A stretch of DNA of 35,855 nt from the NCBI RefSeq assembly GCF_017565765.1, contig NZ_JAGDYP010000004.1, positions 1 through 35,855 on the forward strand, in the 5' to 3' direction. This document shows, one piece after another, positions 8,741 through 32,598 of this stretch. Position 1 is the first letter of the stretch; the number at the start of each line of letters is the position of its first letter. The position numbers and the translations under genes are program-made. The DNA comes from Capnocytophaga bilenii. GTDB taxonomy: Bacteria > Bacteroidota > Bacteroidia > Flavobacteriales > Flavobacteriaceae. Under the pieces are notes generated by a model. It was given only the letters and a program-made list of their open reading frames with translations. It was not told the origin of the DNA and searched no databases.

Positions 8741-8760
8741 CTTACGATAATAATATTGTT

Positions 8761-11043: not shown

Positions 11044-11045
11044 AT

Positions 11046-11076
11046 TTGGCAATTTAGAATATTTTTTGTACTTTTG
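11046..11076 (+). promoter_or_regulatory. Promoter of pgk
   Basis: TTG (11046-11048), a 20-bp spacer, TACTTTTG (11069-11076). The leader is roughly 20 nt. Confidence 0.75.
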
Positions 11077-11104
11077 TTGCGTGGAAATATAATATATAAG
11101 ATAT

Positions 11105-12295
11105 ATGAGAACCATAGACAATTTTAATTTTGCAGGCAAAAAAGCCCTCATTCGTGTGGACTTTAATGTGCCTTTGGATGAAAACTTTAGAGTAACCGAC
11201 AATACTCGTATTGAGGCTGCTAAACCTACCGTTTCTAAGATTTTGAATGACGGAGGTACTGTGGTGCTAATGAGCCACTTGGGACGACCTAAAGGTGAGC
11301 GCAACGACAAATACTCATTGCGTCATATTGTGGGCGAAGTGGAAAAAGTATTGGGCAAAAAGGTTATTTTTGTTGATGATTGTGTGGGTGAAGTAGCTGA
11401 AAAAGCGGTAGCTGCAGCTCCAGCAGGTAGTGTGCTACTATTAGAAAACTTACGCTTCCACAAAGAAGAAGAAAAAGGTGATGAGGCTTTCTCAAAAGAA
11501 TTGGCTAAATTGGGCGACATCTATGTGAATGACGCTTTTGGTACAGCACACCGCGCACACGCTTCGACTACAATCGTGGCAAAATTCTTCGCTGACCGTA
11601 AATGCTTTGGCTACCTTCTTGCCAAAGAAATTGAAAGCATTGACAAGGTAATGAAATCGGGTGAAAAACCTGTAACTGCTATCTTGGGCGGCTCAAAAGT
11701 ATCCTCAAAAATTACAATCATTGAAAATATATTGGATAAGGTAAATCACCTTATTATTGGGGGTGGTATGGCTTATACGTTTATCAAAGCACAAGGTGGC
11801 AAAATAGGTGACTCTATTTGTGAAGACGATAAGCAACAACTTGCTCTTGATATCTTGGCAAAAGCTAAAGCTAAGGGGGTAGAAGTACACTTGCCTATAG
11901 ATGTAGTTGCTGCTGATGCTTTTGATAATGATGCTAAAACACAAGTGGTAGCTGTAAATGCAGTGCCTGATGGCTGGCAAGGGCTTGATGCAGGTCCTAA
12001 AACACTTGCTAATATCAAAGAAGTACTTCTTAAATCAAAAACTATTTTGTGGAATGGCCCTGTAGGGGTGTTTGAAATGCCTACTTTTGCTAAAGGAACT
12101 ATTGAAGTAGGTAACTTTGTGGCTGAAGCTACTAAAAATGGTGCGTTCTCGCTTGTGGGTGGAGGCGACTCGGTAGCGGCTGTGAAACAGTTTGGTTTTG
12201 AGCACAAAGTGAGCTATGTATCTACTGGTGGTGGCGCAATGCTAGAAAGTTTGGAAGGCTTGGTATTACCAGGTATTCAAGCTATTAATGAATAA
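11105..12295 (+). CDS. pgk: Phosphoglycerate kinase
   Basis: A 396-residue cytosolic glycolytic enzyme that transfers phosphate between 1,3-bisphosphoglycerate and ADP. Landmarks: [15 protein letters not shown] near residues 15-29 (substrate-binding signature), [12 protein letters not shown] near 57-68, the basic [11 protein letters not shown] and [10 protein letters not shown] segments, the hinge [22 protein letters not shown], and the nucleotide loop [12 protein letters not shown] near 354-365. Length is typical for bacterial Pgk. It has its own promoter, and an AraC-type regulator gene starts 20 bp after its stop codon, so read-through into that gene is likely. Nothing unusual is seen. Confidence 0.98.
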
Positions 12296-12315
12296 AAACA
12301 GACAGAGACCTGATT

Positions 12316-13143
12316 TTGAAGGTAGCAGTCACACATATTACAGAACAACAATTCTCCACCGCATCTTTGCGAGTGGAGAATTATTGTATTTATATGTTGA
12401 GGGGAGAGGGGCGTTTTTTAGTGGATGGTACGCCTTATGAATACAATGGTAATACTTTGTTGTTTCTTTCTCCTTTTCAGTACTTTCAATGGACGGAGGC
12501 AAGCATTATGGAGGCTATGCTATTGCAGTTTCACGGTGATTTTTATTGTATAGAATATCACAAGAAAGAGGTGGCTTGCAATGGGTTGCTTTTCAATGCT
12601 CTTTTTTTACAACCTCATATTGCTGTTCAAGAGGCTGTTTTTGATGAAATAGCGTTACTTTTTGGTCGTATAGAAGAGGAATTGGCATCGACTGATGAAT
12701 ATTCAGGAGCTGTGTTGCGCTCGTATTTGCAGCTTATTTTAGCACTTTCTAGCAAGGCTAAGAGTTTGCTAATAGCTGATGTGCCTTCGCCTCTCAACCA
12801 TAATTTGCTTACTGATTTTCAGCAACTTGTAGAAACACATTTTATTACTCAGCGCGATTTGCCTTTTTATGCAGAAGCCTTGCATTTATCGGTTGATAGT
12901 TTTAGTAAAAAAATAAAAAGACAGCTTGGGAAGACACCACTACAGCTGCTGCAAGAGCGATTGGTGCTCGAAGCTAAAAAACAACTCCACCTTACCTATA
13001 AATCTATCAAGGAAGTCGCCTATTACCTCAATTTTGACGATCCTTTCTATTTCAGCCGATTCTTCAAAAAACACGTAGGAGTTTCACCAAAAGAATTTAG
13101 AGAAAGCGTAGGGATTTCAATCGTGGCTGAAAAATCTATGTAA
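12316..13143 (+). CDS. AraC-family transcriptional regulator with TTG start
   Basis: A 275-residue regulator. The N-terminal ~100 residues resemble a cupin-like sensor (NYCIYMLRGEGRFLVDGTPYEYNGNTLLFLSPFQYFQW). The C-terminal ~100 residues hold two helix-turn-helix motifs (DLPFYAEALHLSVDSFSKKIKRQLGKTPLQLLQERLVLEAKKQL and SIKEVAYYLNFDDPFYFSRFFKKHVGVSPKEFRE), the AraC/XylS signature. No ATG is available before residue 28, which lies inside the sensor strands, so TTG at 12316 is the best start. It lies between pgk and a DUF417 (RclC-like) gene. In E. coli the AraC-type RclR controls rclABC in the response to reactive chlorine, which suggests, but does not prove, that this protein controls the next gene. 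Confidence 0.88.
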   Translation: MKVAVTHITEQQFSTASLRVENYCIYMLRGEGRFLVDGTPYEYNGNTLLFLSPFQYFQWTEASIMEAMLLQFHGDFYCIEYHKKEVACNGLLFNALFLQPHIAVQEAVFDEIALLFGRIEEELASTDEYSGAVLRSYLQLILALSSKAKSLLIADVPSPLNHNLLTDFQQLVETHFITQRDLPFYAEALHLSVDSFSKKIKRQLGKTPLQLLQERLVLEAKKQLHLTYKSIKEVAYYLNFDDPFYFSRFFKKHVGVSPKEFRESVGISIVAEKSM

Positions 13144-20896: not shown

Positions 20897-20926
20897 CAAA
20901 GATACAAAATAATTATTAATAATCAA
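20897..20926 (-). promoter_or_regulatory. Promoter of the esterase-hemB-cytochrome run
   Basis: On the minus strand: TTG (20926-20924), a 19-bp spacer, TATCTTTG (20904-20897). The leader to 20877 is about 15 nt. Confidence 0.75.
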
Positions 20927-20964
20927 TGATTGATAAAGTAAAATAAGTTACCGCCGTTTATCCT

Positions 20965-21654
20965 TTATTTTAGTTCATCGCAATAAAAGCTAATACGCCC
21001 TCCGGTATCGCCTATTTCTATGCTTTCGTCATACCAACTAACGATTTGCAGTTTAAAATAACGTGCCCCATCAGCCGTACGAATAATATAAGTGTGAAAA
21101 GACGGAGTGTAAGAAGGCGGAGGGCCTGAGAATACCAACGCCTTACTTAGTAGTGTATTCGCATTGGTAGTAGTTTGCTGAGGTCCCTTATTAGGGTCAA
21201 ACCAAGGAATCCCTGTAATGTTGTGAGTTACGGTATAGCTTATCCATTCGCGTTGCGACATCGTGATAGATACGTTGTCGGTATCTACTACCCATTGCAG
21301 GTCGTGGGGCAGTTGCGATACACTTCTCCAGCGATCGTAACCCTGAAAGCCCATATCGGCAGCCCCTCCACGCCCGTTACCACTACTACCACTATTGGTG
21401 CGCAGTTTATTGCCGCAGAACGCCAAATCCCAATCCAGACGCTGTTTTTGCCCACCTTCTATAATATCAGCATTCACTTGGTAGGCATTGAATAGCTCAC
21501 CCGTACGGAGGTTGTAGTATATCCAGTCGTTGGTGATGTTATTCACATACCCCGAACGGCGCGGTAGCACCTTTCCCGTAAAAGGAGCCGCTTCGTACTT
21601 CACGCAAGCCGTGCTTAGCAAGGCTATCAGTATACTGTATAAGATTCTTTTCAT
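20965..21654 (-). CDS. HmuY-family heme-binding lipoprotein
   Basis: A 229-residue lipoprotein. The signal MKRILYSILIALLSTAC gives acylated Cys17, followed by VKYEAAP. The core matches HmuY: VNNITNDWIYYNLRTGEL ... DWDLAFCGNKLRTNSGSSGNGRGGAADMG ... RYFKLQIVSWYD ... GRISFYCDEL. HmuY proteins take heme from host hemoproteins and pass it to a TonB receptor. Several His and Met residues lie in the region where heme ligands are expected, but I cannot assign ligands without alignment. The start is the ATG at 21654, 10 bp past the receptor's stop; the longer frame would only add MIFKFVN inside the receptor gene. Here HmuY follows the receptor instead of preceding it as in the classic hmuYR order. Confidence 0.85.
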   Translation of the reverse strand: MKRILYSILIALLSTACVKYEAAPFTGKVLPRRSGYVNNITNDWIYYNLRTGELFNAYQVNADIIEGGQKQRLDWDLAFCGNKLRTNSGSSGNGRGGAADMGFQGYDRWRSVSQLPHDLQWVVDTDNVSITMSQREWISYTVTHNITGIPWFDPNKGPQQTTTNANTLLSKALVFSGPPPSYTPSFHTYIIRTADGARYFKLQIVSWYDESIEIGDTGGRISFYCDELK

Positions 21655-21664
21655 ATTTACGAAC

Positions 21665-24007
21665 TTAAAAATCAATCTCTACCTGCACAAACAGCCTTCG
21701 TCCGGCTGTAGCAGGAATGTTGAACATTGTAACCCCAGACCCTAAAGTTGAGGGAATATAGTTGAAAATATTATTAGCCCCGATGTTTAGCTTGTAGTGT
21801 TTCAGCAAGCGTTGTTGTACATTGAAGTTAAAAAGAGCATAAGCAGGCAGCTCACAACGGAAATACGCCTCTTTGCTCACGGGGCGCACCTGTGTACCTC
21901 CTCCGTATAAGGGGATTTTTTCTTTTACCGTGATGCGGTCTTGCACATCAAAAGTTTTCTTGCCCATCATACTCATCGTCAGGTTTGCCGATAGGTCGTA
22001 ATTTTCCCGATACCACTTGTATTCCAGTCCTGCGGTGGCAGCGTGTGGCGAGGTGGTATTGATGTGCAACCCCTCCGTCTTGCTTACATCCACATACGAA
22101 TAGGAAGCGTTCAGCGTCAGCGCAGGTATAATCTTCCAGCGGGTGAGCAAGTCAAAGCCTAAGAGCCGTTGTTGGCTGAGGTTGGTATATTCAAAGTTAT
22201 ACTGAAATTCGTATATCTTCCATACGCCTTCTATCTTGTCCTGAAACTGATTGATAAAAGCATTGCCAGAGATGAAGAATTTAGGCACCGCATATTCAGC
22301 CCCTACCGAAAAGTAATGATTTTTCTCAGGCTGTAGCATCTCATTGCCTATGATTTGAAACATCCCCAAGTGATCCCAATTGAAGAACAATTCCTTTATA
22401 GACGGTGAGCGGTAGCCTTTGGCGTAATTTAAGCGATACGAAAGGGCTTCGGTGGGCGAAAACTTCAAAGCTACCTTAGGCAGTGCCATCGTGCCAAACT
22501 GCAAGCTGTAATTAGTGCGTAGCCCTGCCTCCACTTGCCACTTAGGGGTAATTGTATAGGTATCCTGAAAGAAAAACTCCCATTCCTTTAAGCCCCGTGT
22601 GAGCATACGATTTGCCGCAAAACGGTCGCTGGTAAGGTCGTCCTGAAAATAGTCAATCCCCAAGATAAGGTCGTGCTTTTTGAAGTATTGCGAGGTCAGC
22701 GTCAGGCGTGGCTGCATAATCTTAGAGTCGTATACCTTTTTATCCACATCACGCCGCTCGTGTCGCTTGTAGCGTTCGTAAAAATCAGTGTGAAAAGTAC
22801 CGTGTAGCGCAAAATAGTCTTTCAGGCGATAAGAGAGTTTTAACCCTCCGGTGAAGTCTTTTGTTTGCGAAAAATAGAGGTCTTGCACCATATCATACGA
22901 GTTCATCAAAAAGCCCGTGCCGTAGAGCTGCACACTTAGGTCTTTGCTGTCGTAATACACTTTTTGCGAAGCCGAAAGGTGCTCCACCCCCTCAATACCC
23001 ATTGGCGGACGTAAGAAAGTGGCTTGCACTATGGTATCCTTACTGAGGAATGAATTAGCTTCTTTGGTATACACTTTCCTGTCGGGTTCTTTTTGGTAAA
23101 GGTAATACGCATCTTGGCTGCTAAACCACACATCTGTCTGGCTGGTGAATTTTCCTATCTTTGCCCCCGCCGATACCCACGATTGCAAGTTGGGCTTATC
23201 GGCATTCTTTTCAAACATATAGAGAAAGTCCTGCCGCTCAGGGTTGTGGTAATTGCGCTCATTCATCTCGGCGTGGCGCGAACCTACTGTAATAGCAAAA
23301 GGTTTATCTGTTTTCTTGGTGATAATATTGATAACCGCCCCTGCTGCCCGTGAGCCGTAGAGGGTAGATGAAGCCCCTTTCATCACCTCAATGCGCTCTA
23401 CAGCATGCAGGTTGAACCGCTCGTAATCTAAGTTGCCTGCCATTTCACCCGTCATACGCTCGCCGTCCATCAAAAAGAGGATATGGCGTGCATCCAAGCC
23501 CTGCATACTTATCTCGTTGCCAAAGCCCACCTTTTGTATGTTCATACCGGGGGTTTCCTGCATCAGTGCCTGCTGAATGTTGCTATAGCCTGCTTTCACC
23601 AGCTCCTGCCCCGTAATCACTTGTACTATGGTAGCTGTTTCTTTGGTAGGGCGCACAGTAGTTCCTTTTGTTTTGGCAGTGAGGGTAGTCCCTGCCAGCT
23701 GGGTAGCTTCCTCGCTCAGGTATACCGTCAGGGTATTCCCAGCGTTGAGAGTCCCTTTTAGCAAGGTGTAGCCCAACGACTGCACTGCGTAATGCAATAC
23801 ACCCCCCTTGCGCCTTTCTAGTAAGGCAACACCATTGTCATCGGCAATGCTGTGTTGCAACTTCTCGCTGTAAGCAGGCTCGGTATAGCTCACTACTGCC
23901 GCAGCTATAGGCAAGCGGGTACTCTTGTCCAGCACCCGCACTTGTACCTGTTGGGCAGTAACAATGCCTACCCATAAATATAATAGTAATGAAACAATAA
24001 TTCTCAT
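21665..24007 (-). CDS. TonB-dependent receptor, probable heme receptor (HmuR-like)
   Basis: A 780-residue outer-membrane receptor with a cleaved signal ending near TAQQ. A carboxypeptidase-regulatory-like domain covers ~20-100. The plug at ~120-235 includes IQQALMQETPGMNIQKVGFGN and VERIEVMKGASSTLYGSRAAGAVINIITKK. A 22-strand barrel fills the rest and ends in FVQVEIDF. Near residue 540 the barrel shows GYRSPSIKELFFNWDHLG ... GNEMLQPEKNH, which aligns with the FRAP and NPNL boxes of heme receptors; FRAP is recognisable (YRSP), NPNL is degenerate (NEML). With HmuY encoded immediately after it, heme or hemoprotein uptake is the best guess. The lipoprotein gene before it ends only 6 bp upstream, so they form an operon. 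Confidence 0.87.
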   Translation of the reverse strand: MRIIVSLLLYLWVGIVTAQQVQVRVLDKSTRLPIAAAVVSYTEPAYSEKLQHSIADDNGVALLERRKGGVLHYAVQSLGYTLLKGTLNAGNTLTVYLSEEATQLAGTTLTAKTKGTTVRPTKETATIVQVITGQELVKAGYSNIQQALMQETPGMNIQKVGFGNEISMQGLDARHILFLMDGERMTGEMAGNLDYERFNLHAVERIEVMKGASSTLYGSRAAGAVINIITKKTDKPFAITVGSRHAEMNERNYHNPERQDFLYMFEKNADKPNLQSWVSAGAKIGKFTSQTDVWFSSQDAYYLYQKEPDRKVYTKEANSFLSKDTIVQATFLRPPMGIEGVEHLSASQKVYYDSKDLSVQLYGTGFLMNSYDMVQDLYFSQTKDFTGGLKLSYRLKDYFALHGTFHTDFYERYKRHERRDVDKKVYDSKIMQPRLTLTSQYFKKHDLILGIDYFQDDLTSDRFAANRMLTRGLKEWEFFFQDTYTITPKWQVEAGLRTNYSLQFGTMALPKVALKFSPTEALSYRLNYAKGYRSPSIKELFFNWDHLGMFQIIGNEMLQPEKNHYFSVGAEYAVPKFFISGNAFINQFQDKIEGVWKIYEFQYNFEYTNLSQQRLLGFDLLTRWKIIPALTLNASYSYVDVSKTEGLHINTTSPHAATAGLEYKWYRENYDLSANLTMSMMGKKTFDVQDRITVKEKIPLYGGGTQVRPVSKEAYFRCELPAYALFNFNVQQRLLKHYKLNIGANNIFNYIPSTLGSGVTMFNIPATAGRRLFVQVEIDF

Positions 24008-24013
24008 CGGGTT

Positions 24014-25114
24014 TTATGGTGTTATGGCTACTTCCTTGGCGTAAATGCTAAGCCCTAATTCTTTGTTTAGATACGAAAAAGATGTTACTTTTTTCTCTAC
24101 ATTCACAATCATTCTCACTTCACCTTTTGCCGAAGTTTTAAGCGTTCTTGCCCCTGTAGCGTCCCAAAGCGTAGTGCTTACCCCTACAGCTTTTAGTTTG
24201 GCTTTATCGCTATTGCCTTGCCCGTAAATAGCTTCTTCACTTTTGGTAAGCACATCTATAAAACGCGCTTTGCCATTGAAAGACAATTGCATATTTGCCC
24301 CACTCACTGCTGCTTTGCCAAGCAAGAGTTGCATACGCCCTGTTACATTGTTAGGCTCTTTACCATCCCACGCAAAGGCGATGGGCAGGGCTACATCGGT
24401 AGTTTTACCCTCATAAGTAAGTTTAGCGGTAATGGTTTGGGTATTGGTAAAAAGTGTAATAGCTTTCTGGTTGTTATCACTGTGGAAGCTTTCAGCTCCT
24501 GTGTCCAATTTTCTTTCAGCCAACGCCTCTTCGTAGGCATCGAGTTCTTCCTGAAAGTTAGCCAAACGCGAGGGGTCTATACGCTGTTTAAATACCGTAC
24601 CCACCACGTTCATCATATTGTACTGAATGAGGAAATACACCTCCTGCGTATCTATGTTGAAGAACCCCGTTACTACCGTACTGCCTTCTTTAGTAATAGG
24701 AGCACCTTTGTAATCGTCAGGTACATAAGGGGTAGTTACTGCCGCTTTGTCGTAAAATTTTATCCAATTGCCATTGTACTCATTTTTGTCCCAATAGCTA
24801 AGCTCCATAACCTGCAACGAAGCGTGCATTGTTACCGCAAAAGGCATAGTACCAGGTTGTATTTTCTCAAGGTGCATTTTGAGGCGTTTGCTGGCATCGT
24901 CCCAAGTGAAAGTAAATTTGGTAGGTACGCCCGAAGGTAATAACGATTTATCTACACCCGCCATTTTCACGTGTTGCCCCAGTATCATATCGCCTTTCAG
25001 TATATTGATAGCCGTTTGCAGTTTAGGGTCGGTATTTTCAATAGGTTTGTTTTGTTCTTCTTTTTTACAAGCCAAAAGAACAAGCCCTATAAATAATAAA
25101 AATATTTTTTTCAT
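24014..25114 (-). CDS. Surface-type lipoprotein of unknown function in the heme-uptake cluster
   Basis: A 366-residue lipoprotein: MKKIFLLFIGLVLLACKKEEQN, with Cys16 followed by KKEE, which fits the Lys-acidic surface-export pattern. Two similar halves are suggested, each mixing beta strands with a substrate-pocket-like segment: residues ~35-210 (KLQTAINILKGDMILGQHVKMAGV ... GFFNIDTQEVYFLIQYNMMNVVGTVF) and ~220-366 (ITLFTNTQTITAKLTYEGKTTDVALPIAFAWDG ... ERKVTSFSYLNKELGLSI-like end). It may belong to a Bacteroidetes DUF4903-type lipoprotein family, but I cannot confirm that. It ends 6 bp before the TonB receptor gene, so it is probably an accessory heme or hemoprotein binder. No motif shows this directly. 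Confidence 0.75.
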   Translation of the reverse strand: MKKIFLLFIGLVLLACKKEEQNKPIENTDPKLQTAINILKGDMILGQHVKMAGVDKSLLPSGVPTKFTFTWDDASKRLKMHLEKIQPGTMPFAVTMHASLQVMELSYWDKNEYNGNWIKFYDKAAVTTPYVPDDYKGAPITKEGSTVVTGFFNIDTQEVYFLIQYNMMNVVGTVFKQRIDPSRLANFQEELDAYEEALAERKLDTGAESFHSDNNQKAITLFTNTQTITAKLTYEGKTTDVALPIAFAWDGKEPNNVTGRMQLLLGKAAVSGANMQLSFNGKARFIDVLTKSEEAIYGQGNSDKAKLKAVGVSTTLWDATGARTLKTSAKGEVRMIVNVEKKVTSFSYLNKELGLSIYAKEVAITP

Positions 25115-25148
25115 AGTAAGGAGATTAATTACAGTTGAAGTTAAGGGT

Positions 25149-25192
25149 AAAAGCCAGAAAGCAACAATTGTAGTTGTTACTTTCTGACTTTT
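25149..25192. terminator. Long hairpin between two lipoprotein genes
   Basis: AAAAG-c-CAGAAAG-c-AACAA (25149 on) pairs with TTGTT-a-CTTTCTG-a-CTTTT (to 25192), with two mismatches and a short loop. On the minus strand it follows the calycin-like gene by 20 bp and ends in CTTTTA. It may end or attenuate transcription before the receptor genes. Confidence 0.65.
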
Positions 25193-25211
25193 AAGAGTAG
25201 GAAGTAGAGGA

Positions 25212-25802
25212 TTAGTTTCCTAATTGTTGGTCTCCCTCAAAATGTACATAAGCAGTAAAGATAGTAATATAGAAGAATATTTTTCCTTCGCTATGAATTC
25301 CTACTGTTAATTTGTAGCGACCGTCATTAGTTGGAGTAAAAGAACCTTCCATAGAAGTAATAGGGTAAGGAGTCTCTCCAAGAAGAGGAACTCTTAAGAG
25401 TACTCCATCTGAGATATTAGAGGCTTTAAAAGTACCATTACTATTAAGTTTAATACCATTGGCTTTTATTTCGATAGTACCGGGCATCTCCCCTACTTTA
25501 AAAGCTGGTAAATGCAAATTGAACTTACTGTTGTTATATTTACTTACAGTAAAAATTTGGTTTAGTACTTTACCTCTGTCTTTACCTCTCATTACAACCT
25601 TATCAAGGGTTCCTTTATACTCTCCTACTACATCGTTTACTGTTATAGTAGTTCTTTGCAGTTCAGCATTTTGCTGAACTACTGCTTGACTATTGGCAAC
25701 TAATCCTGTCTCAGCAGTATTTAGTTCCTCTTTTTGGCACCCTATAAATGCCACCACTGCGATTGCTGTAAAAGCAATCATTCTTAAAAATGAATGTTTC
25801 AT
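25212..25802 (-). CDS. Calycin-like surface-type lipoprotein
   Basis: A 196-residue lipoprotein: MKHSFLRMIAFTAIAVVAFIGCQKEELN, with Cys22 followed by QKEE, a close match to the published Capnocytophaga surface-export consensus (Gln-Lys-acidic-acidic). From ~55 on a single beta-rich domain begins VVGEYKGTLDKVVMRG and continues with KFNLHLPAFKVGEMPGTIEIKANGIKL and SFTPTNDGRYKLTVGI. This is the pattern of the 'calycin-like' domain found next to Bacteroidetes outer-membrane receptors. Small-ligand binding is likely for a calycin barrel; heme is suggested only by its neighbours. It has its own promoter and is followed by a hairpin that may limit read-through into the receptor operon. Confidence 0.8.
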   Translation of the reverse strand: MKHSFLRMIAFTAIAVVAFIGCQKEELNTAETGLVANSQAVVQQNAELQRTTITVNDVVGEYKGTLDKVVMRGKDRGKVLNQIFTVSKYNNSKFNLHLPAFKVGEMPGTIEIKANGIKLNSNGTFKASNISDGVLLRVPLLGETPYPITSMEGSFTPTNDGRYKLTVGIHSEGKIFFYITIFTAYVHFEGDQQLGN

Positions 25803-25866
25803 ATAGATAATGTTTAAAAGTTACTAATTTATTATTTTAAACTCATTATAAATAAGTTTTGTAGCA

Positions 25867-25896
25867 CAAAGGTACAAATAATTATTTATTATGCAA
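25867..25896 (-). promoter_or_regulatory. Promoter of the calycin-like gene and perhaps the heme-uptake operon
   Basis: On the minus strand: TTG (25896-25894), a 19-bp spacer, TACCTTTG (25874-25867). It lies between the stop codon of lipoprotein A and the calycin-like gene, so this cluster can be expressed apart from the array. Confidence 0.75.
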
Positions 25897-25902
25897 CTTT
25901 TT

Positions 25903-27465
25903 TTACTTATTTATTTCTCTTTTTATGAGATTTAAGAACAAATCATCTGCTTTATTTTTCTTAGATTGAATACGTGAAGCTTTAGCTGTATCTTCTTCAT
26001 CTTCATCTTCATCTTCATCATATAACGGAAGATAATCATATACTTTTAAAGAAGGAGCATCATAAAAGCTCGCTACACCTATTTTTTTATCAGGGATATA
26101 TGTTTCAACAAATTTTTTGGTTTCTGGTCTATTAAAAATCTCTTCAGTAGGAGTAAAATATAGTTTGCCATTCGTGTCGTCTTTTTCTCCACGAGATAGA
26201 TAGTATAAAAATTTCTGAGTAGGATAAATAACTTTAGCAGAGATACCACCTAAGTATATATATTGTATCACTTGTAACTTACTAAAATCAATAGTTGATT
26301 TTAAAGCGGGTAAATTTAAAAAAGCAATACTATAGGCAGAAATAGGAGAAGGTGCCTTGCTTACATCAGGCAAAATTACCTCTTCTAATAGTGAACAGTT
26401 TGCAAAACGAATAGCAGTACCTGAAAAATTATTGTGATTAGCAGCTCCTTTTTGCATCATTGTTTTTGAAGCAGATAAATCTATTTTTTTAACAGTTGCA
26501 TTATTCATTATTTGAATAGCAGTTAAACCCTCAGCTTTTGAGAAATCTATATTAGGGGTGTCTACCCAAACAGTTCCAAATGCTGTTACTTTTTGTCCTA
26601 ACTTTATATACGGAATAGTTTGCTTTTTATCTGTGTTTAACTCAATGTAAACTAATGCACTAAGTAGAGGGTTGTTAATAATATACTCAACTCCTTCAAT
26701 ATTATCAATCTCAGAAGTATCAATTATATTAGGATTATATTGTGGAGCTTGTGAAATCATAAGCGCATTATTAGCCTCTTCAGAACTTAATCTTTTTGAA
26801 AGGTCTATTTTATCACCATTCATCACGCTTGAATAGTGTTTTTTCATATAAAGAAGTAAGGTTGCATCAGGCACCTCGCGCAAGGTAGTATATTTCTCAG
26901 CAACTCCTTGTGCATTAAGCATTTGTACATTACTATCAGGAGCAAGTTTTACATAGGCAGGCAATACGTCCATATTGTACTTAGCAGTTGTAGGCAATAC
27001 CAGCTTATCAAAACGGCGAATCAGCTTATAAGGCACTTGAGCATTGTCGCTATAGTCGGTAGTAGCAAGGTTTTTAAAGTCGTACAGCTCATTACCGCTT
27101 AGGTTTACGCTCTTTATCGTTGCAGGTAATGCCCCAAAGTCAAATTCTTGCGCAAACTTGTTGTTGCTGAGGTTTACCTCGCTAAGCGCAGGGAACGCCT
27201 CCAAGCCCTTTACGCTGTTTAGGTTAGCCCCCGTAAGGTCAAGCGTAGTAGCGTTTTTCACCTTGTCGTTTTGCACCAGCTGGTCGCCTTCAAAAGTAAA
27301 GCCTTGAGCTTTTAGGGCAGTTATGAGCTCAGGGTTAGCGATCGCCACCTTGTTAGGAACAGTAGGAGCAGGTTGCGGGTCTTCTTTTTTGCTGCAAGCC
27401 ACCCCAAAGCTAATAAGTGCTGCCGAAAGCACTATTTTTGCCGAATGTTGAATATAATTTCTCAT
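25903..27465 (-). CDS. Leucine-rich surface-type lipoprotein A (array copy)
   Basis: A 520-residue lipoprotein: signal MRNYIQHSAKIVLSAALISFGVAC (Cys24), then SKKED (surface-export-like). A leucine-rich repeat block at ~60-130 includes TTLDLTGANLNSVKGLEAFPALSEVNLSNNKF and IKSVNLSGNELYDFKNL. Residues 1 to ~180 are almost identical to copies B and C. After EVPDA the sequence departs (LLLYMKKHYSSVMNG ...), rejoining briefly at GVEYIINNPL. The rest (residues ~260-470) keeps an LRR-like rhythm (KKIDLSASKTMMQ, FANCSLLEEVILPDVSKA) but little identity. Unlike B and C it ends in an acidic run (DEDEDEDEE) and a Lys-rich tail. Function unknown; adhesion, ligand capture or antigenic variation are options. 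Confidence 0.85.
   Translation of the reverse strand: MRNYIQHSAKIVLSAALISFGVACSKKEDPQPAPTVPNKVAIANPELITALKAQGFTFEGDQLVQNDKVKNATTLDLTGANLNSVKGLEAFPALSEVNLSNNKFAQEFDFGALPATIKSVNLSGNELYDFKNLATTDYSDNAQVPYKLIRRFDKLVLPTTAKYNMDVLPAYVKLAPDSNVQMLNAQGVAEKYTTLREVPDATLLLYMKKHYSSVMNGDKIDLSKRLSSEEANNALMISQAPQYNPNIIDTSEIDNIEGVEYIINNPLLSALVYIELNTDKKQTIPYIKLGQKVTAFGTVWVDTPNIDFSKAEGLTAIQIMNNATVKKIDLSASKTMMQKGAANHNNFSGTAIRFANCSLLEEVILPDVSKAPSPISAYSIAFLNLPALKSTIDFSKLQVIQYIYLGGISAKVIYPTQKFLYYLSRGEKDDTNGKLYFTPTEEIFNRPETKKFVETYIPDKKIGVASFYDAPSLKVYDYLPLYDEDEDEDEEDTAKASRIQSKKNKADDLFLNLIKREINK
25995..26018. repeat. Hexanucleotide microsatellite inside lipoprotein A
   Basis: Four exact copies of CTTCAT (plus strand), encoding the alternating Asp-Glu run in the C-terminal part. 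Unit length is six, so copy-number change would keep the frame. Confidence 0.9.
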
Positions 27466-27497
27466 AGTTAAAATATTTATAGTTATATAAAATCTTT

Positions 27498-27536
27498 ATA
27501 CTCATTTATGTTTATTTGCAGTTCGTGTATGAGTAT
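27498..27536 (-). promoter_or_regulatory. Inverted repeat in the leader of lipoprotein A
   Basis: ATACTCAT (27498-27505) and ATGAGTAT (27529-27536) are 8-bp inverted repeats 33 bp upstream of the gene. The same pair lies at 29218-29225 and 29249-29256 upstream of B, but not upstream of C. It could be an RNA hairpin or an operator. Confidence 0.5.
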
Positions 27537-27566
27537 CTCGTTTTAAAAGAACAATTGCGCACGCCC

Positions 27567-27594
27567 TTTGGCAAACTTTCAAGAGTTTGCCAAA
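27567..27594. repeat. Hairpin in the A/B spacer
   Basis: TTTGGCAAACT (27567-27577) pairs perfectly with AGTTTGCCAAA (27584-27594) across 6 nt. It occupies the same place as the 172-bp element in the B/C spacer. No T tract follows on the minus strand, so it is not a standard terminator. Confidence 0.65.
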
Positions 27595-27643
27595 GTTAGT
27601 TACTGATAATCAAACACTCACGATTAAAAAAATGATTTAGTTG

Positions 27644-29185
27644 CTATTTTCTTTTAGCTCTATTATATTCAGCTAAATCTTTTAGAGAATTTCCTTTTGT
27701 TTTGCGAATAAAACTTCTACCACTCTCATTATCGGTATAGTCATAAAACTCTATATCTTTTGAAAATTCTGATATCCCTCCAAAAAAGCGCAAACGGTCT
27801 TTAGGGAGGTATTTATTCATAAACGCTTTGGTCTCAGCTCTATCAAATATATCTCTGCCTATATCAAAGCTTAATTTGCCTGGGAATTCAGGTTCCTCTC
27901 CATCTAATTCTTCGTATGAAAAGTATTTAATTTCAGTAGGATAACTAATTTTAGGCACAAGTGGAAGTCCAGCTAATTCTATAATCATTGCCGCTTCTAA
28001 TTTGCTTATATCTACAGCCGATTTTAGTTTAGGAAGCTCCAAAAGACCAAAAAGACCAATTGTAGTAGGGGTAGCAACTCCCTTAGAAAGATCAGGGAAT
28101 ATTATATTCTCTAAGTTAGGACATTTAGAGAAAAATAAATAATCACCTGCAAAACCGTCATACCCGTCACTACCTCTTTTCATTATTTTTGTGGAAGAAA
28201 GATTAATATCTTTCACTTCTTTATTACCAATAGAAATTATTTGGGATAAATTCTCTGCCTCTGATAAATCAAGTACAGAAGTGGTTAAATTAATAAGTTT
28301 TACACTTGCTGTTTTGTTTGATATTTTTAGCTTAGGTAGACTGAATTTTTCATCGGCTAATAACCATACTTCTACACTCCCGCCAAAAAGAGGATTATTT
28401 ATAATATACTCAACCCCCTCTAAGTTTTTAAGGTTAGCAAATTCAGGTTTATTATACCCCTCTTCACCTTTTAATATTTTTATAATATTAGCTCTTTCAT
28501 CTACTTTTATACTCTTGCTAATATCAATCTTATCACCACTAAACACACTTGCAAAGTTAGCTTTCAAATATTGCAACAACACAGCATCAGGCACTTCGCG
28601 CAAGGTAGTATATTTCTCAGCAACTCCTTGTGCGTTCAGCATTTGTACATTGCTATCAGGAGCGGTTTTTACATAGGCAGGCAATACATCCAAATTGTAC
28701 TTAGCCGTTGCAGGCAATACCAGCTTATCAAAACGGCGAATCAGCTTATAAGGCACTTGAGCATTGTCGCTATAGTCGGTAGTAGCAAGGTTTTTAAAGT
28801 CGTACAACTCATTACCGCTTAGGTTTACGCTCTTTACCGTTGCAGGCAATGCCCCAAAGTCAAATTCTTGCGCAAACTTGTTGTTGCTGAGGTTTACCTC
28901 ACTAAGCGCAGGGAACGCCTCCAATCCCTTTACGCTGTTTAGGTTAGCCCCCGTAAGGTCAAGCGTAGTAGCGTTTTTCACCTTGTCGTTTTGTACCAGC
29001 TGGTCGCCTTCAAAGGTAAAGCCTTGTGCTTTTAGGGCAGTTATGAGCTCAGGGTTAGCAATCGCCACCTTGTTAGGAATAGTAGGAGCAGGTTGCGGCT
29101 CTTCTTTTTTGCTGCAAGCCACCCCAAAGCTAATAAGTGCTGCCGAAAGCACTATTTTTGCCGAATGTTGAATATAATTTCTCAT
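27644..29185 (-). CDS. Leucine-rich surface-type lipoprotein B (array copy)
   Basis: A 513-residue lipoprotein with the same signal, Cys24 and an export-like SKKEEP tail, and the same LRR block as copies A and C. It stays close to C through ~residue 265 (LLQYLKANFASVFSGDKIDIS ... NLKNLEGVEYIINNPLF). It then diverges over residues ~265-480 (for example SVEVWLLADEKFSLPKLKIS, DLSEAENLSQIISIGN) and finally shares the C-terminal tail FIRKTKGNSLKDLAEYNRAKRK with C. The variable segment keeps LRR-like units (VKDINLSSTKIMKRG, SKCPNLENIIFPDLSKG), so fold is kept while surface residues change. No promoter of its own is obvious; expression may come from the one before C or from within the shared leader. 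Confidence 0.85.
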   Translation of the reverse strand: MRNYIQHSAKIVLSAALISFGVACSKKEEPQPAPTIPNKVAIANPELITALKAQGFTFEGDQLVQNDKVKNATTLDLTGANLNSVKGLEAFPALSEVNLSNNKFAQEFDFGALPATVKSVNLSGNELYDFKNLATTDYSDNAQVPYKLIRRFDKLVLPATAKYNLDVLPAYVKTAPDSNVQMLNAQGVAEKYTTLREVPDAVLLQYLKANFASVFSGDKIDISKSIKVDERANIIKILKGEEGYNKPEFANLKNLEGVEYIINNPLFGGSVEVWLLADEKFSLPKLKISNKTASVKLINLTTSVLDLSEAENLSQIISIGNKEVKDINLSSTKIMKRGSDGYDGFAGDYLFFSKCPNLENIIFPDLSKGVATPTTIGLFGLLELPKLKSAVDISKLEAAMIIELAGLPLVPKISYPTEIKYFSYEELDGEEPEFPGKLSFDIGRDIFDRAETKAFMNKYLPKDRLRFFGGISEFSKDIEFYDYTDNESGRSFIRKTKGNSLKDLAEYNRAKRK

Positions 29186-29291
29186 AGTTAAAATATTTAT
29201 AGTTATATAAAATCTTTATACTCATCTATGTTTATTTGCAGTTCGTGTATGAGTATCTCTTTTTAAAAGAACAATTGCGCCACGCCGAAGC

Positions 29292-29463
29292 TGTCCAAAA
29301 AGTCTTTAAAAGTACTACTTCGGCATCTCCCCCCTTTTGAAGGAAGTCCGCGAGCTGGCGCAGCGGAGTATGTGTTAAGGGGGGATGTTAATAATCAATT
29401 AGTTACAAAAATATTCTATTCATTAATAAGCTTGTTTTAAGCTAAAATAAAACTTTTTGGACA
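29292..29463. mobile_element. MITE-like or REP-like 172-bp inverted-repeat element
   Basis: It is bounded by perfect 12-bp inverted repeats, TGTCCAAAAAGT (29292-29303) and ACTTTTTGGACA (29452-29463). Inside are CATC-t-CCCCCCTT (29324-29336) paired with AAGGGGGGATG (29377-29387), and within that TCCGC/GCGGA (29347-29351 with 29363-29367). GCCGAAG/CTTCGGC (29284-29290 with 29318-29324) overlaps the left edge. It has no reading frame and is absent from the otherwise matching A/B spacer, so it looks inserted. No clear target duplication was found. Confidence 0.6.
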
Positions 29464-29516
29464 TCCTCTTAGTTACTGATAATCAAACACTCACGATTAA
29501 AAAAATGATTTAGTTG

Positions 29517-31067
29517 CTATTTTCTTTTAGCTCTATTATATTCAGCTAAATCGTTTAGAGTATTTCCTTTTGTTTTGCGAATAAAACTTCTACCACTCTC
29601 ATTATCGGTGTCGGTATAGTCATAAATTTCTGAATCCTCTAATAAATCATCTACAAAATCGTTTGAAGTTCTAATTCTATTGTTAGGAAGGTATTTTTGT
29701 ATAAAAGCCTTTGTTTCTTCTTTGTCATATATGTCTCTTGTAATAGTTAAAGTTAATTTTCCAAGCTGACCTTCTTTTTCTTTATTTCCTCCTATAGTAA
29801 AATATTTTATTTCAGTAGGGTATATAATCTTAGTACTTGCTGGTATTTTAGCTAACTGAAGAGAATAGAAAACTTGTATTTTACTTAAATCAATGGTAGA
29901 GGTAAGGTTTGGTAAATTTAAAAGGGAGATTGCAAATACTGCGATAGGAGAAGCTGTACTCTTAGAAACATCAGGCAAGGTAAAAGTTTTTAAATTAGGA
30001 CAATCTGCAATCACAATAAAATCACCTACGAAAGCTAAATGACTTGTTTCGCCTCGTTGCATCATTTTTTTAGAGGCTGATAAATTGGCATTAGTAATAC
30101 CTTTATTATGAACAGCCCAAAAAGTAAAAAGACCTTCTGCTTTGGTTAAGTTAAGATTAGGTGTACTAACACCATAGAGAATAACACTTCCTGTTTTGGG
30201 TGATATTTTTAAATTATCTACTACAAAGTTTTCATCAGGTAAGGTTCGTATTTCTACACTCCCGTCAAAAAGAGGATTATTTATAATATACTCAACCCCC
30301 TCTAAGTTTTTAAGGTTAGTAAATTCTGGCTCATTATACCCCTCTTCACCTTTTAATATTTTTACTGCATTGGCTCTTTCATCTACTTTTAAGTTCTTGC
30401 TAATATCAATCTTATCACCACTAAACACACTTGCAAAGTTAGCTTTCAAATATTGCAACAACACAGCATCAGGCACTTCGCGCAAGGTAGTATATTTCTC
30501 AGCAACTCCCTGTGCGTTCAGCATTTGTACATTACTATCAGGAGCAAGTTTTACATAGGCAGGCAATACGTCCAAATTGTACTTAGCAGTTGCAGGCAAT
30601 ACCAGCTTATCAAAACGGCGAATGAGTTTATAAGGCTCTTGGGCATTGTCGCTATAGTCGGTAGTAGCAAGGTTTTTAAAGTCGTACAGCTCATTACCGC
30701 TTAGGTTTACGCTCTTTATCGTTGCAGGTAATGCTCCAAAGTCAAATTCTCGCGCAAATTTGTTGTTGCTGAGGTTTACCTCACTAAGCGCAGGGAACGC
30801 CTCCAAGCCCTTTACGCTGTTTAGGTTAGCCCCCGTAAGGTCAAGCGTAGTAGCGTTTTTCACCTTGTCGTTTTGCACCAGCTGGTCGCCTTCAAAAGTA
30901 AAGCCTTGAGCTTTTAGGGCAGTTATGAGTTCAGGGTTAGCAATTGCCACCTTGTTAGGAACAGTAGGAGCAGGTTGCGGGTCTTCTTTTTTGCTGCAAG
31001 CCACCCCAAAGCTTATAAGTGCTGCCGAAAGCACTATTTTTGCCGAATGTTGAATATAATTTCTCAT
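29517..31067 (-). CDS. Leucine-rich surface-type lipoprotein C (first array copy)
   Basis: A 516-residue lipoprotein from the ATG at 31067. The open frame extends 29 codons further upstream, but that part covers the promoter and the MRNYIQHS signal clearly begins here. Cys24 is followed by SKKED. Residues 1 to ~265 match copy B closely; the middle (~265-485) is distinct (SVEIRTLPDENFVVDNLKIS, LNLTKAEGLFTFWAVHNKG, ITNANLSASKKMMQRG, IADCPNLKTFTLPDVSKS); and the tail FIRKTKGNTLNDLAEYNRAKRK again matches B. KKMMQRG and DLSKIQV-type segments are closer to copy A in places, giving a mosaic look. It is the promoter-proximal gene of the array. Confidence 0.86.
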   Translation of the reverse strand: MRNYIQHSAKIVLSAALISFGVACSKKEDPQPAPTVPNKVAIANPELITALKAQGFTFEGDQLVQNDKVKNATTLDLTGANLNSVKGLEAFPALSEVNLSNNKFAREFDFGALPATIKSVNLSGNELYDFKNLATTDYSDNAQEPYKLIRRFDKLVLPATAKYNLDVLPAYVKLAPDSNVQMLNAQGVAEKYTTLREVPDAVLLQYLKANFASVFSGDKIDISKNLKVDERANAVKILKGEEGYNEPEFTNLKNLEGVEYIINNPLFDGSVEIRTLPDENFVVDNLKISPKTGSVILYGVSTPNLNLTKAEGLFTFWAVHNKGITNANLSASKKMMQRGETSHLAFVGDFIVIADCPNLKTFTLPDVSKSTASPIAVFAISLLNLPNLTSTIDLSKIQVFYSLQLAKIPASTKIIYPTEIKYFTIGGNKEKEGQLGKLTLTITRDIYDKEETKAFIQKYLPNNRIRTSNDFVDDLLEDSEIYDYTDTDNESGRSFIRKTKGNTLNDLAEYNRAKRK

Positions 31068-31114
31068 AGTTAAAATATTTAATGTTGTTGTTAAATGAAT
31101 ATTAATATCGGGCA

Positions 31115-31122
31115 CAAATGTA
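31115..31122 (-). promoter_or_regulatory. -7 box upstream of the lipoprotein array
   Basis: On the minus strand TACATTTG, followed by TGCCC, about 48 nt before the start of copy C. No clear TTG at -33. This is the only good TAnnTTTG found immediately before an array gene. Confidence 0.6.
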
Positions 31123-31197
31123 CGAAAATAATTTAGAATAAAAAAACATAACACACTTTTTCATATTCTGCCAATTCAGAATTCAAAATTCTTCCCA

Positions 31198-31241
31198 GCG
31201 AAGGTTGAGCGAAGGTTGAGCGAAGGATAAGCGAAGGATAA
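31198..31241. repeat. 11-bp tandem repeat (four units)
   Basis: Two units of GCGAAGGTTGA followed by two of GCGAAGGATAA, without gaps, in the divergent region between the lipoprotein array and the adaptor operon. The rest of 31123-31284 holds nothing else I recognise. Confidence 0.9.
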
Positions 31242-31284
31242 AAGTGCGCAGCCCCATATGTAAAAACCTTTACTATTAAAAAGA

Positions 31285-31314
31285 TTGCATATTCAAAAAA
31301 AATCATTACCTTTG
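31285..31314 (+). promoter_or_regulatory. Promoter of the adaptor-barrel-VWA operon
   Basis: TTG (31285-31287), a 19-bp spacer, TACCTTTG (31307-31314). The leader to 31345 is about 25 nt. Confidence 0.78.
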
Positions 31315-31344
31315 CATTGCTAATTATATAATGCACTTTTATTT

Positions 31345-32598
31345 ATGAAAAAAAGAACCCTATTAGTTATTATAGCCATTATCTTGCTGATAGTTATACT
31401 TATAGCAGGTAAAAAAGCAGGCTGGTTTGGCGAAGAAAACCCCGCTGTAGCAGTCGAGGTACAAAACGTCTCTATCGGTAACCTTACCCAAAAAGTATCC
31501 GCTACAGGAAAAATACAACCCGAATTAGAAATAAAAATCTCTTCCGAAGTATCAGGCGAAATTATAGAACTACCCATAAAAGAAGGACAATTAGTAAAAA
31601 AAGGCGACCTATTAGTGCGCATCAACCCCGATATTTACCAATCTGGGCTCAACCGCGTAGTCGCTACCCTCGAAACCGTGCGCTCCTCTCTTAGGCAAGC
31701 CGAAGCCAACTTCAAAGAGGCTCAAGAAAGCTACAACCGCAATAAAGTTTTGTTTGAAAAAGGAGTCATTTCAAAATCCGATTGGGATAAAGCCGTATCT
31801 GCCTACGAAGTAGCCAAAGCCAACCTCGAATCAGCTAAATACAACGTGCAAAGCGCAATGGCAAGCGTAAACGAAGCACAAGATAACCTCAAAAAAACCA
31901 ACATCTATTCCCCAGCCGATGGCACCATCTCCAAGCTCAACGTAGAACTCGGCGAACGCGTGGTAGGTACCATACAAATGACAGGTACCGAAATTATGCG
32001 CGTTGCCAACTTAGGCAGTATGGAAGTAGAAGTAGATGTAAATGAAAACGACATCGTAAAAGTAAAAGTAAACGATACCGTAAATGTAAATGTAGATGCC
32101 TACCTAAAACGAACCTTCCAAGGAAGCGTTACCAATATCGCCAATACCGCCAATAGCACCTCCAGTGTAGACCAAGTGACCAACTTCAAAGTCAAAATCC
32201 ATATAAAAGAAAGCTCCTACCAAGACCTCATAGCAGGAAAAAGCGCAGGTTATTCACCCTTCCGTCCTGGTATGACCGCTACGGTAGACATCCTCACCCA
32301 AACCAAAAAAAATATAGTCATCGCCCCCATTAGTGCTATTATAGTGAAAAAACGCTCCGAAATAGATGCCAATACCCCCCAAGACCAAGCCGATAAACGA
32401 CAAGAAGCCGTTTTTGTAGTTCAAGACGGAAAAGCGCTATTGCGTGCGGTAGATACTGGCATTCAGGATAATACTAATATAGAAATAGTATCAGGGCTTG
32501 CCAAAGACGAACAGCTTATCGTAGCACCTTACGAAGCAATTACAAAACAACTCAAAAACAATGACCCCGTACAACTCAATACTAACAAAAATAAATAG
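31345..32598 (+). CDS. Periplasmic adaptor subunit (MacA/HlyD-like membrane fusion protein)
   Basis: A 417-residue protein with an N-terminal membrane anchor at ~5-22 (LLVIIAIILLIVILIAG). Next come a beta-barrel and first lipoyl half (KVSATGKIQPELEIKISSEVSGEIIELPIKEGQLVKKGDLL, ~50-92), a coiled-coil hairpin at ~100-190 (SSLRQAEANFKEAQESYNRNKVLFEKGVISKSDWDKAVSAYEVAK), a second lipoyl half (NIYSPADGTISKLNVELGERV) and a barrel with FRPGMTATVDI. Such proteins bridge an inner-membrane ABC or RND pump to an outer-membrane channel. Neither pump nor TolC gene is next to it; instead its TAG is followed directly by the ATG of an outer-membrane barrel gene. The transported substrate is unknown. Confidence 0.92.
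   Translation: MKKRTLLVIIAIILLIVILIAGKKAGWFGEENPAVAVEVQNVSIGNLTQKVSATGKIQPELEIKISSEVSGEIIELPIKEGQLVKKGDLLVRINPDIYQSGLNRVVATLETVRSSLRQAEANFKEAQESYNRNKVLFEKGVISKSDWDKAVSAYEVAKANLESAKYNVQSAMASVNEAQDNLKKTNIYSPADGTISKLNVELGERVVGTIQMTGTEIMRVANLGSMEVEVDVNENDIVKVKVNDTVNVNVDAYLKRTFQGSVTNIANTANSTSSVDQVTNFKVKIHIKESSYQDLIAGKSAGYSPFRPGMTATVDILTQTKKNIVIAPISAIIVKKRSEIDANTPQDQADKRQEAVFVVQDGKALLRAVDTGIQDNTNIEIVSGLAKDEQLIVAPYEAITKQLKNNDPVQLNTNKNK

Follow-up and report, generated by a model that had tools for sequence, protein, structure and literature searches.

A tandem array of putative surface lipoprotein genes in Capnocytophaga bilenii, with modules probably recombined between species, heads an accessory TonB-linked island

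The window analyzed here covers 35,855 bases at the start of a 294-kb contig (NZ_JAGDYP010000004.1) from the genome (2.73 Mb) of the mouth bacterium Capnocytophaga bilenii. Its minus strand carries three genes in tandem, C, B and A in this order, which encode putative surface lipoproteins with a leucine-rich repeat (LRR) block and are followed by genes for a calycin-like lipoprotein, a DUF4903 lipoprotein, a TonB-dependent receptor (TBDR) and an HmuY-family lipoprotein. The three genes of the array are intact open reading frames (ORFs); the length of gene C is counted from the ATG common to A, B and C, the listed ORF beginning at a GTG further upstream. In a DNA self-comparison, C at 31081-30184 aligned with B at 29199-28302 (93.4% over 899 bp, E 0.0), B at 29286-28584 with A at 27565-26864 (96.4% over 703 bp, E 0.0, including approximately 100 bp 5′ of the start codon) and C at 31081-30466 with A at 27479-26864 (97.1% over 616 bp, E 0.0), and B and C met again in a common tail spanning their stop codons (E 1.7e-68, Table 1). 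Along the genes, in steps of 25 codons, the DNA identity of C and of B to A was 91-100% up to codon 200 and 35-65% beyond, and that between C and B was 86-99% to codon 275, 47-72% for codons 276-500 and 96-100% at the end (codons are numbered by the columns of an alignment of six sequences, which coincide with gene codons up to approximately 240). The sequence-only reading that preceded this work had described a three-copy array in which near-identical fronts give way to strongly divergent parts, with B and C rejoining over their last ~22 codons in a constant-variable-constant arrangement of direct repeats. The intact ORFs, the self-comparison and the stepwise identity plot are in agreement with this description in its layout and coordinates, with a front of ~200 codons common to the three genes and of ~275 codons common to B and C, followed by modules at 35-72% identity.

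A scan of genome contigs with protein C returned one locus, in C. periodontitidis strain p1a2 (locus L005, genome G010), one genome per species being compared. In this locus, a C-type gene (8001-9584) is followed by a calycin-like gene (9604-10164), a broken remnant and an A-type gene (10909-12483), downstream of which lies a run of calycin-like, DUF4903, TonB receptor and HmuY-like genes. The content of the array is therefore different, with an A-type gene, a C-type gene and a remnant and another copy number, and no B-type gene was found among the matches in the 20 genomes of the genus (own included), the C. periodontitidis locus included. The 454 bp of the remnant (10339-10792) are 99.1% identical to the end of the A-type gene and the start of its calycin neighbor, which points to a turnover of copy number.

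The silent-site divergence separates the two halves of the genes. In the window genome, the fronts of A, B and C differ at a synonymous divergence (dS) of 0.07-0.11 for codons 1-100 and 0.14-0.19 for codons 101-200, and the two front copies of C. periodontitidis differ from one another at 0.29-0.30; between the species, the corresponding values are 0.90-0.96 for codons 1-100 and 0.37-0.41 for codons 101-200. These values show fronts which are similar within a genome and distinct between species, so that the half that seemed constant is species-specific. Module A and its C. periodontitidis counterpart, on the other hand, differ at 0 of 62 synonymous sites for codons 201-300 and at 5 of 66 for codons 301-400, and module C differs from its counterpart at a dS of 0.26 in each 100-codon step, compared with a proportion of changed synonymous sites (pS) of 0.60-0.76 for seven other genes of the window. 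The synonymous changes in module A (5/128) against those in the front (37/69) give a Fisher p of 8.7e-16. Since all 62 silent sites of the first part of module A are unchanged, this module would not have been inherited with the rest of the genome but transferred later. By the measure of silent sites, modules A and C are shown to have passed from one lineage to another since the two species separated, or else to have come recently from a third source in both. Downstream of the array, the non-coding stretch that separates A from the calycin-like gene is 95-97% identical between the species, and dS is 0.14 for the calycin-like gene, 0.51 for the DUF4903 gene, 0.87 for the TBDR gene and 1.22 for the HmuY-like gene. 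The identity between gene A and its counterpart (pA) comes in blocks, with 93-100% at 26888-26289, 70-82% at 26288-26049 and 85-100% at 26048-25029; the presence of the 70-82% block inside the close stretch indicates that this stretch is a mosaic.

The conflict between the halves is also seen in the trees of six sequences, namely A, B, C, the C. periodontitidis counterparts pA and pC, and the full-length gene of a third genome (G011). Three orthologue trees were tested on codons 1-200 and were worse by 173-174 log-likelihood (lnL) units, with p≤1.5e-6 in the approximately unbiased (AU) test; three genome trees were tested on codons 206-495 and were worse by 566-584 lnL (AU p≤2.5e-5). The latter codons favor the orthologue tree with B beside C, the other two orthologue trees being approximately 15 lnL worse (AU p 0.004-0.005) and not rejected by the Shimodaira-Hasegawa (SH) test. 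In the free front tree, the grouping of pA with pC is supported at 95.9/93. Among the 404 informative sites of the quartet A, C, pA and pC, 89 group the genes by genome, 313 by type and 2 in neither way; all of the 89 sites lie at or before codon 188, and 312 of the 313 from codon 201 on. The change from one grouping to the other falls within codons 188-201, where the conserved motif TTLREVPD lies. Together with the different copy content of C. periodontitidis and the nearly identical remnant, these conflicting histories sustain the earlier proposal that recombination acts on the array. The GC content at third codon positions (GC3) changes between the same halves, from 43-46% in the front to 18-23% in the module for A, B and C (45.0 to 18.3% in gene A), and from 41.5-44% to 15-20% in pA and pC of C. 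periodontitidis, whereas the G011 gene is nearly even (41% in the front and 35% in the module); in the calycin-like gene it is 23%. By their composition, the AT-rich modules and the calycin-like gene look imported and the fronts resident.

The ratio of non-synonymous to synonymous divergence (omega) between the species is 0.42 (95% 0.26-0.68) for module A and 0.24 (95% 0.15-0.39) for module C, compared with 0.30 and 0.27 for the fronts. The highest value, 0.71 (0.46-1.05), is that between the modules of A and B over codons 281-500, which are near saturation, and no omega clearly above 1 was found across the fronts and modules compared. Judged from these ratios, the modules are under purifying or relaxed selection, and the suggestion of diversifying selection on them finds no support in the between-species values. 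The non-synonymous divergence (dN) of the TBDR and HmuY-like genes between the species is 0.032 and 0.040, respectively, and these transporter genes are under tighter constraint than the modules. An ordinary old duplication was to be expected, according to the sequence-only reading, in the case where all strains carried the same genes under purifying selection throughout; the selection does look purifying, but the set of modules and the fronts are not the same in the two species.

The N-termini of A, B and C share the same lipoprotein-type signal, which ends at Cys24; in gene C it reads ...GVACSKKEDP, where Cys24 is, by reading, lipobox-like. The surface export signal reported for C. canimorsus is C-X-K-(D/E)2-X (PMC5080379), and the sequences following the signal in the calycin-like protein (CQKEEL) and in the DUF4903 protein (CKKEEQ) fit it exactly. 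A, B and C, which come close to this signal, are probably outer-membrane surface lipoproteins. Pfam LRR models match A, B and C at residues 73-134 only, i.e., in the constant block, and all below their curated cut-offs; the full-length relative of G011 exceeds the cut-off for LRR_4 and LRR_EndoS. With a profile of the six proteins, LRR chains were matched in the PDB over approximately residues 69-135, the best being 5il7 (E 6.8e-13), with internalin B (4aw4) at E 2.3e-6. For residues 200-430, the count of LRR motifs was not above that of shuffled sequences (fractions reaching it: A 0.31, B 0.49, C 0.33), in a test which is weak, the constant blocks of the three proteins being likewise non-significant (0.14, 0.12 and 0.12). 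An LRR rhythm preserved in the variable part, as read from the sequence at first, is not shown by these data, profile support being confined to the constant block. Short stand-alone LRR proteins of 167-219 residues, encoded by adjacent pairs of genes elsewhere in the genus (loci L009 in G003 and L013 in G011), resemble the front of A, B and C only, and at least some of them start with lipoprotein-like signals.

Table 1. Features of the array and of the genes that follow it, in window coordinates.
Feature	Position	Strand	Basis or remark
Gene C, putative surface LRR lipoprotein, 516 aa	29517..31067	-	Front 31067-30468; module of type C from 30467
Gene B, putative surface LRR lipoprotein, 513 aa	27644..29185	-	C-like to ~codon 275, own module ~276-500, C-like tail
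Gene A, putative surface LRR lipoprotein, 520 aa	25903..27465	-	Front 27465-26866; module of type A from 26865
Constant-to-module switch region of gene A, codons 188-201, TTLREVPD inside	26863..26904	-	Quartet sites and GC3
Common tail of B and C, ~48 bp beyond the stop included	B copy 27596..27736; C copy 29469-29609	-	98.6% over 141 bp
Dispersed ~180-bp repeat between C and B, MITE-like (miniature inverted-repeat transposable element), imperfect terminal inverted repeats	29287..29468		Complementary arms, matches in own genome
Calycin-like lipoprotein	25212..25802	-	PF13944 6.2e-09
DUF4903 lipoprotein	24014..25114	-	PF16246 6.1e-46
TBDR	21665..24007	-	PF00593 3.5e-40, PF07715 1.3e-22
HmuY-family lipoprotein	20965..21654	-	PF14064 3.2e-28
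Promoter-like TTG-N-TANNTTTG, upstream of calycin-like gene	25867..25896	-	Pattern match

The repeat between C and B has arms at 29287-29306 and 29449-29468 that are 85% complementary, and it has at least 43 matches in its own genome at E≤1e-5, itself counted (40 of 128 candidates scored). In C. periodontitidis, the segment at approximately L005 10171-10339, directly before the broken remnant, matches at least 32 places in another genome of the genus (G018), so that a dispersed repeat lies at an array junction in this species too. Within gene A, in-frame GATGAA repeats (25989-26048, minus strand) encode a DEDEDEDEE run, which is shorter in C. periodontitidis and whose length may be variable. 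Elsewhere on the plus strand of the window are a 510-residue ORF with a match to Pfam Thiol_cytolysin (4396-5928, E 4.4e-39) and, close to the contig start, a DDE transposase-like ORF (337-1209).

Of 20 genomes of the genus, three (G000, G010 and G011) carry a full-length LRR gene, and the DUF4903 gene was found in the same three; the other genus genomes matched (two in one search, four in another) showed no more than short stretches of similarity, to parts of the front. G011 has one full-length LRR gene, with DUF4903, TonB receptor and HmuY-like genes directly after it; the order is kept, and the neighborhood is unlike that of the other two genomes. The genes beside the G011 island are presumably panC-like and RNA-methyltransferase-like. 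In G018, the left flank of the C. periodontitidis site, with genes that we take to be ssb- and aat-like, is kept at 91% and the match stops approximately 160 bp before gene C; only short repeat matches were found there to the right flank of the C. periodontitidis island, and other genes come after the left flank, so that this is not a clean empty site. The G011 neighborhood and the G018 flank together indicate that the island is accessory and sited in different places. Among wider taxa, only the own genome matched at E≤1e-10 in 397 sampled genomes of the family and 395 of the phylum, these samples being thin, with neither G010 nor G011 drawn. For the HmuY-like protein as well, only the own genome was returned at E≤1e-15 in the 395 phylum genomes, although Bacteroides fragilis has one (PDB 8b61).

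The sequence-only reading did not include the TonB receptor and HmuY-like partner genes, nor could it reveal how close the modules are across species, and its interpretation as a whole is supported in part. The locus resembles the HmuY/HmuR-type TonB uptake loci of Bacteroidota in that an HmuY-family lipoprotein gene adjoins a TonB receptor gene, as observed in the window, in L005 and in G011; calycin-like genes are marked in some of the hmu loci published (PMC12106395), and an HmuY homologue has been reported in three C. cynodegmi genomes (PMC4447898). It differs from these loci by the LRR lipoprotein array and the DUF4903 lipoprotein which head the cluster, and by the lack of hmuSTUV-like genes following in the window, where the next genes match the UPF0227, ALAD and cytochrome c families. 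Some Porphyromonas species are described as carrying hmuSTUV elsewhere (PMC12106395), and the missing downstream genes are therefore not decisive. A third difference lies in the HmuY-like protein itself, whose closest solved relative is 8b61 (E 2.7e-99), the P. gingivalis HmuY (3h8t) being matched only at E 2.1e-4; 8B61 is HmuY-Bf-3, which according to PMC12106395 binds neither heme nor protoporphyrin IX (PPIX). Since the HmuY-like protein is closest to this non-binder, a simple heme story is doubtful and the ligand may not be heme. For the TonB receptor, the best NCBIfam match is the hemoglobin/transferrin/lactoferrin receptor family, far below its cut-off (140.7 bits vs 323.75), and the best PDB sequence matches are the colicin I receptor and BtuB, with heme receptors ranked lower; a heme specificity of this receptor is thus not established. 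No relative of the DUF4903 protein was found in the PDB (best E 1.2). These genes fit heme uptake less well than a system which takes up some other ligand and has surface heads that can be exchanged.

The short putative LRR block in a protein predicted to be exported is a feature shared with internalin-like and BspA-like LRR surface proteins, unlike which the module of A, B and C matches no recognized family. In Mycoplasma genitalium, the variation of MgPa reportedly draws on donor repeats elsewhere in the genome, and in this respect the array is unlike it, no donor repeats having been found in our own-genome searches. The likeness to that system is the variation of a surface protein in an adhesin operon (PMC2169797). 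Allelic exchange of surface proteins has been described in P. gingivalis for RagAB, the Kgp adhesins and others, and there also distinct surface-protein variants are recombined into mosaics which depart from the genome tree (PMC5266723); that exchange occurs within one species, whereas here it would be between species, in a tandem array and behind a common front. No description of the present array was found in the titles and abstract beginnings of the literature on Capnocytophaga lipoproteins, HmuY, interspecies recombination and concerted evolution.

Taken together, these data lead us to favor, with moderate confidence, a tandem array, subject to recombination, which encodes probable surface lipoproteins of the outer membrane, stands at the head of an accessory uptake island linked to TonB and has modules that have been recombined between species. 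The common front of each protein would comprise the signal peptide, the site of lipid attachment, the export signal, the short LRR block and approximately 65 further residues, and would be joined to a C-terminal module drawn from several that are old and divergent. Imported modules would be placed behind the resident front by homologous recombination, for which the common front and the common downstream DNA would serve as anchors; the fronts would be kept alike, and the copy number altered, by gene conversion or unequal crossing-over. With less certainty, the front would provide export and docking functions, and the module would catch a ligand outside the cell and hand it to the conserved DUF4903, TonB receptor and HmuY-like partners; a swap of modules would then alter the capture, or what antibodies and phages see, with the transporter fixed. 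From gene order only, we infer that the LRR proteins may dock with this transporter.

Several observations weigh against this interpretation. The array is present in only two of the genomes searched, which bears on the donor and the direction of the transfer. The close stretch of module A is not uniformly close, as codons 401-500 have 22.9 of 63 synonymous sites changed (dS 0.50), and several recombination blocks are needed. In the free front tree, A, B and C separate from the other sequences with weak support (SH approximate likelihood-ratio test 76, bootstrap 56), so that it is the rejection of the orthologue trees which carries the point. The data fit either a gene conversion of the fronts or modules imported behind copies of one resident front. 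The export motif of A, B and C (CSKKED or CSKKEE) is only approximate, with K at +3 and +4 and acids at +5 and +6, and that of the C. periodontitidis LRR proteins (CKKSDS) is a weak match. Lastly, the pattern TTG-N-TANNTTTG, which we take to be promoter-like, lies between the array and the calycin-like gene, and their transcripts may be separate in this genome; this pattern is itself weak, with four of its six matches in 20900-31400 inside genes, and in L005 it occurs at 12469, before the intact calycin-like gene, and at 10626, in the remnant.

Other explanations were weighed against the same data. Fronts duplicated within each species, behind which modules were captured once from an AT-rich third party with no continuing exchange or homogenization, would account for the abrupt shift in GC3 seen at codon ~200 in each of the two species and for the low divergence of the fronts within a genome; we consider such a history unlikely, as the identity in blocks between A and pA and the intermediate divergence of the fronts over codons 101-200 suggest more than one event, and a recent broken duplicate is present in L005. 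The constant-variable-constant layout in direct repeats, with fronts alike within the genome, is also what would be expected of a programmed antigenic variation in which silent donor cassettes rewrite the expressed copies within one clone. Yet searches of the own genome with protein C (E≤1) and with the six-sequence profile (E≤0.01) gave the three full-length copies and no partial donor cassette, and gene A DNA had one further match, of 28 bp only. Moreover, modules A and C are recognizable across species with the low omega values given above, and the 17 inverted-repeat pairs in 25000-31500 have arms of at most 25 nt, none of them, in our judgement, like an invertible promoter. Variation by switching, one of the possibilities raised from the sequence at first, is not borne out by these searches, and we regard it as very unlikely.

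An old tandem duplication inherited vertically, with a constraint varying along the gene, agrees with three intact copies and with omega below 1 in both halves, but it is contradicted by the nearly unchanged silent sites of module A, when 60-76% of those of seven other genes have changed, and by half trees that reject each other, which makes it highly improbable. Exchangeable C-terminal modules behind a constant export front would also suit a protein of kin recognition or contact-dependent competition; since A, B and C matched nothing but LRR models when scanned against Pfam and NCBIfam and the linkage to the TonB receptor and HmuY-like genes is kept in three genomes, this function seems extremely unlikely to us. 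A misassembly of the near-identical fronts is a possible source of such a layout, against which stand the own module and own differences of each copy and the same architecture in a second species.

Returning to the recombining array at the head of an uptake island, we propose tentatively, as a rather doubtful extension, that a fixed set of TonB receptor, DUF4903 and HmuY-Bf-3-like proteins is served by LRR lipoproteins whose modules are traded among Capnocytophaga species, so that different modules would bind different non-heme ligands or host carrier proteins. The array shows how the labels "constant" and "variable", when drawn from one genome, can mislead, the variable modules being common to two species and the constant half being what distinguishes them. 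It would provide a concrete and sharply bounded case of the exchange of surface modules between species, and it ties a family of LRR lipoproteins to an HmuY-Bf-3-like transporter, which may offer a handle for finding the ligand of this transporter.

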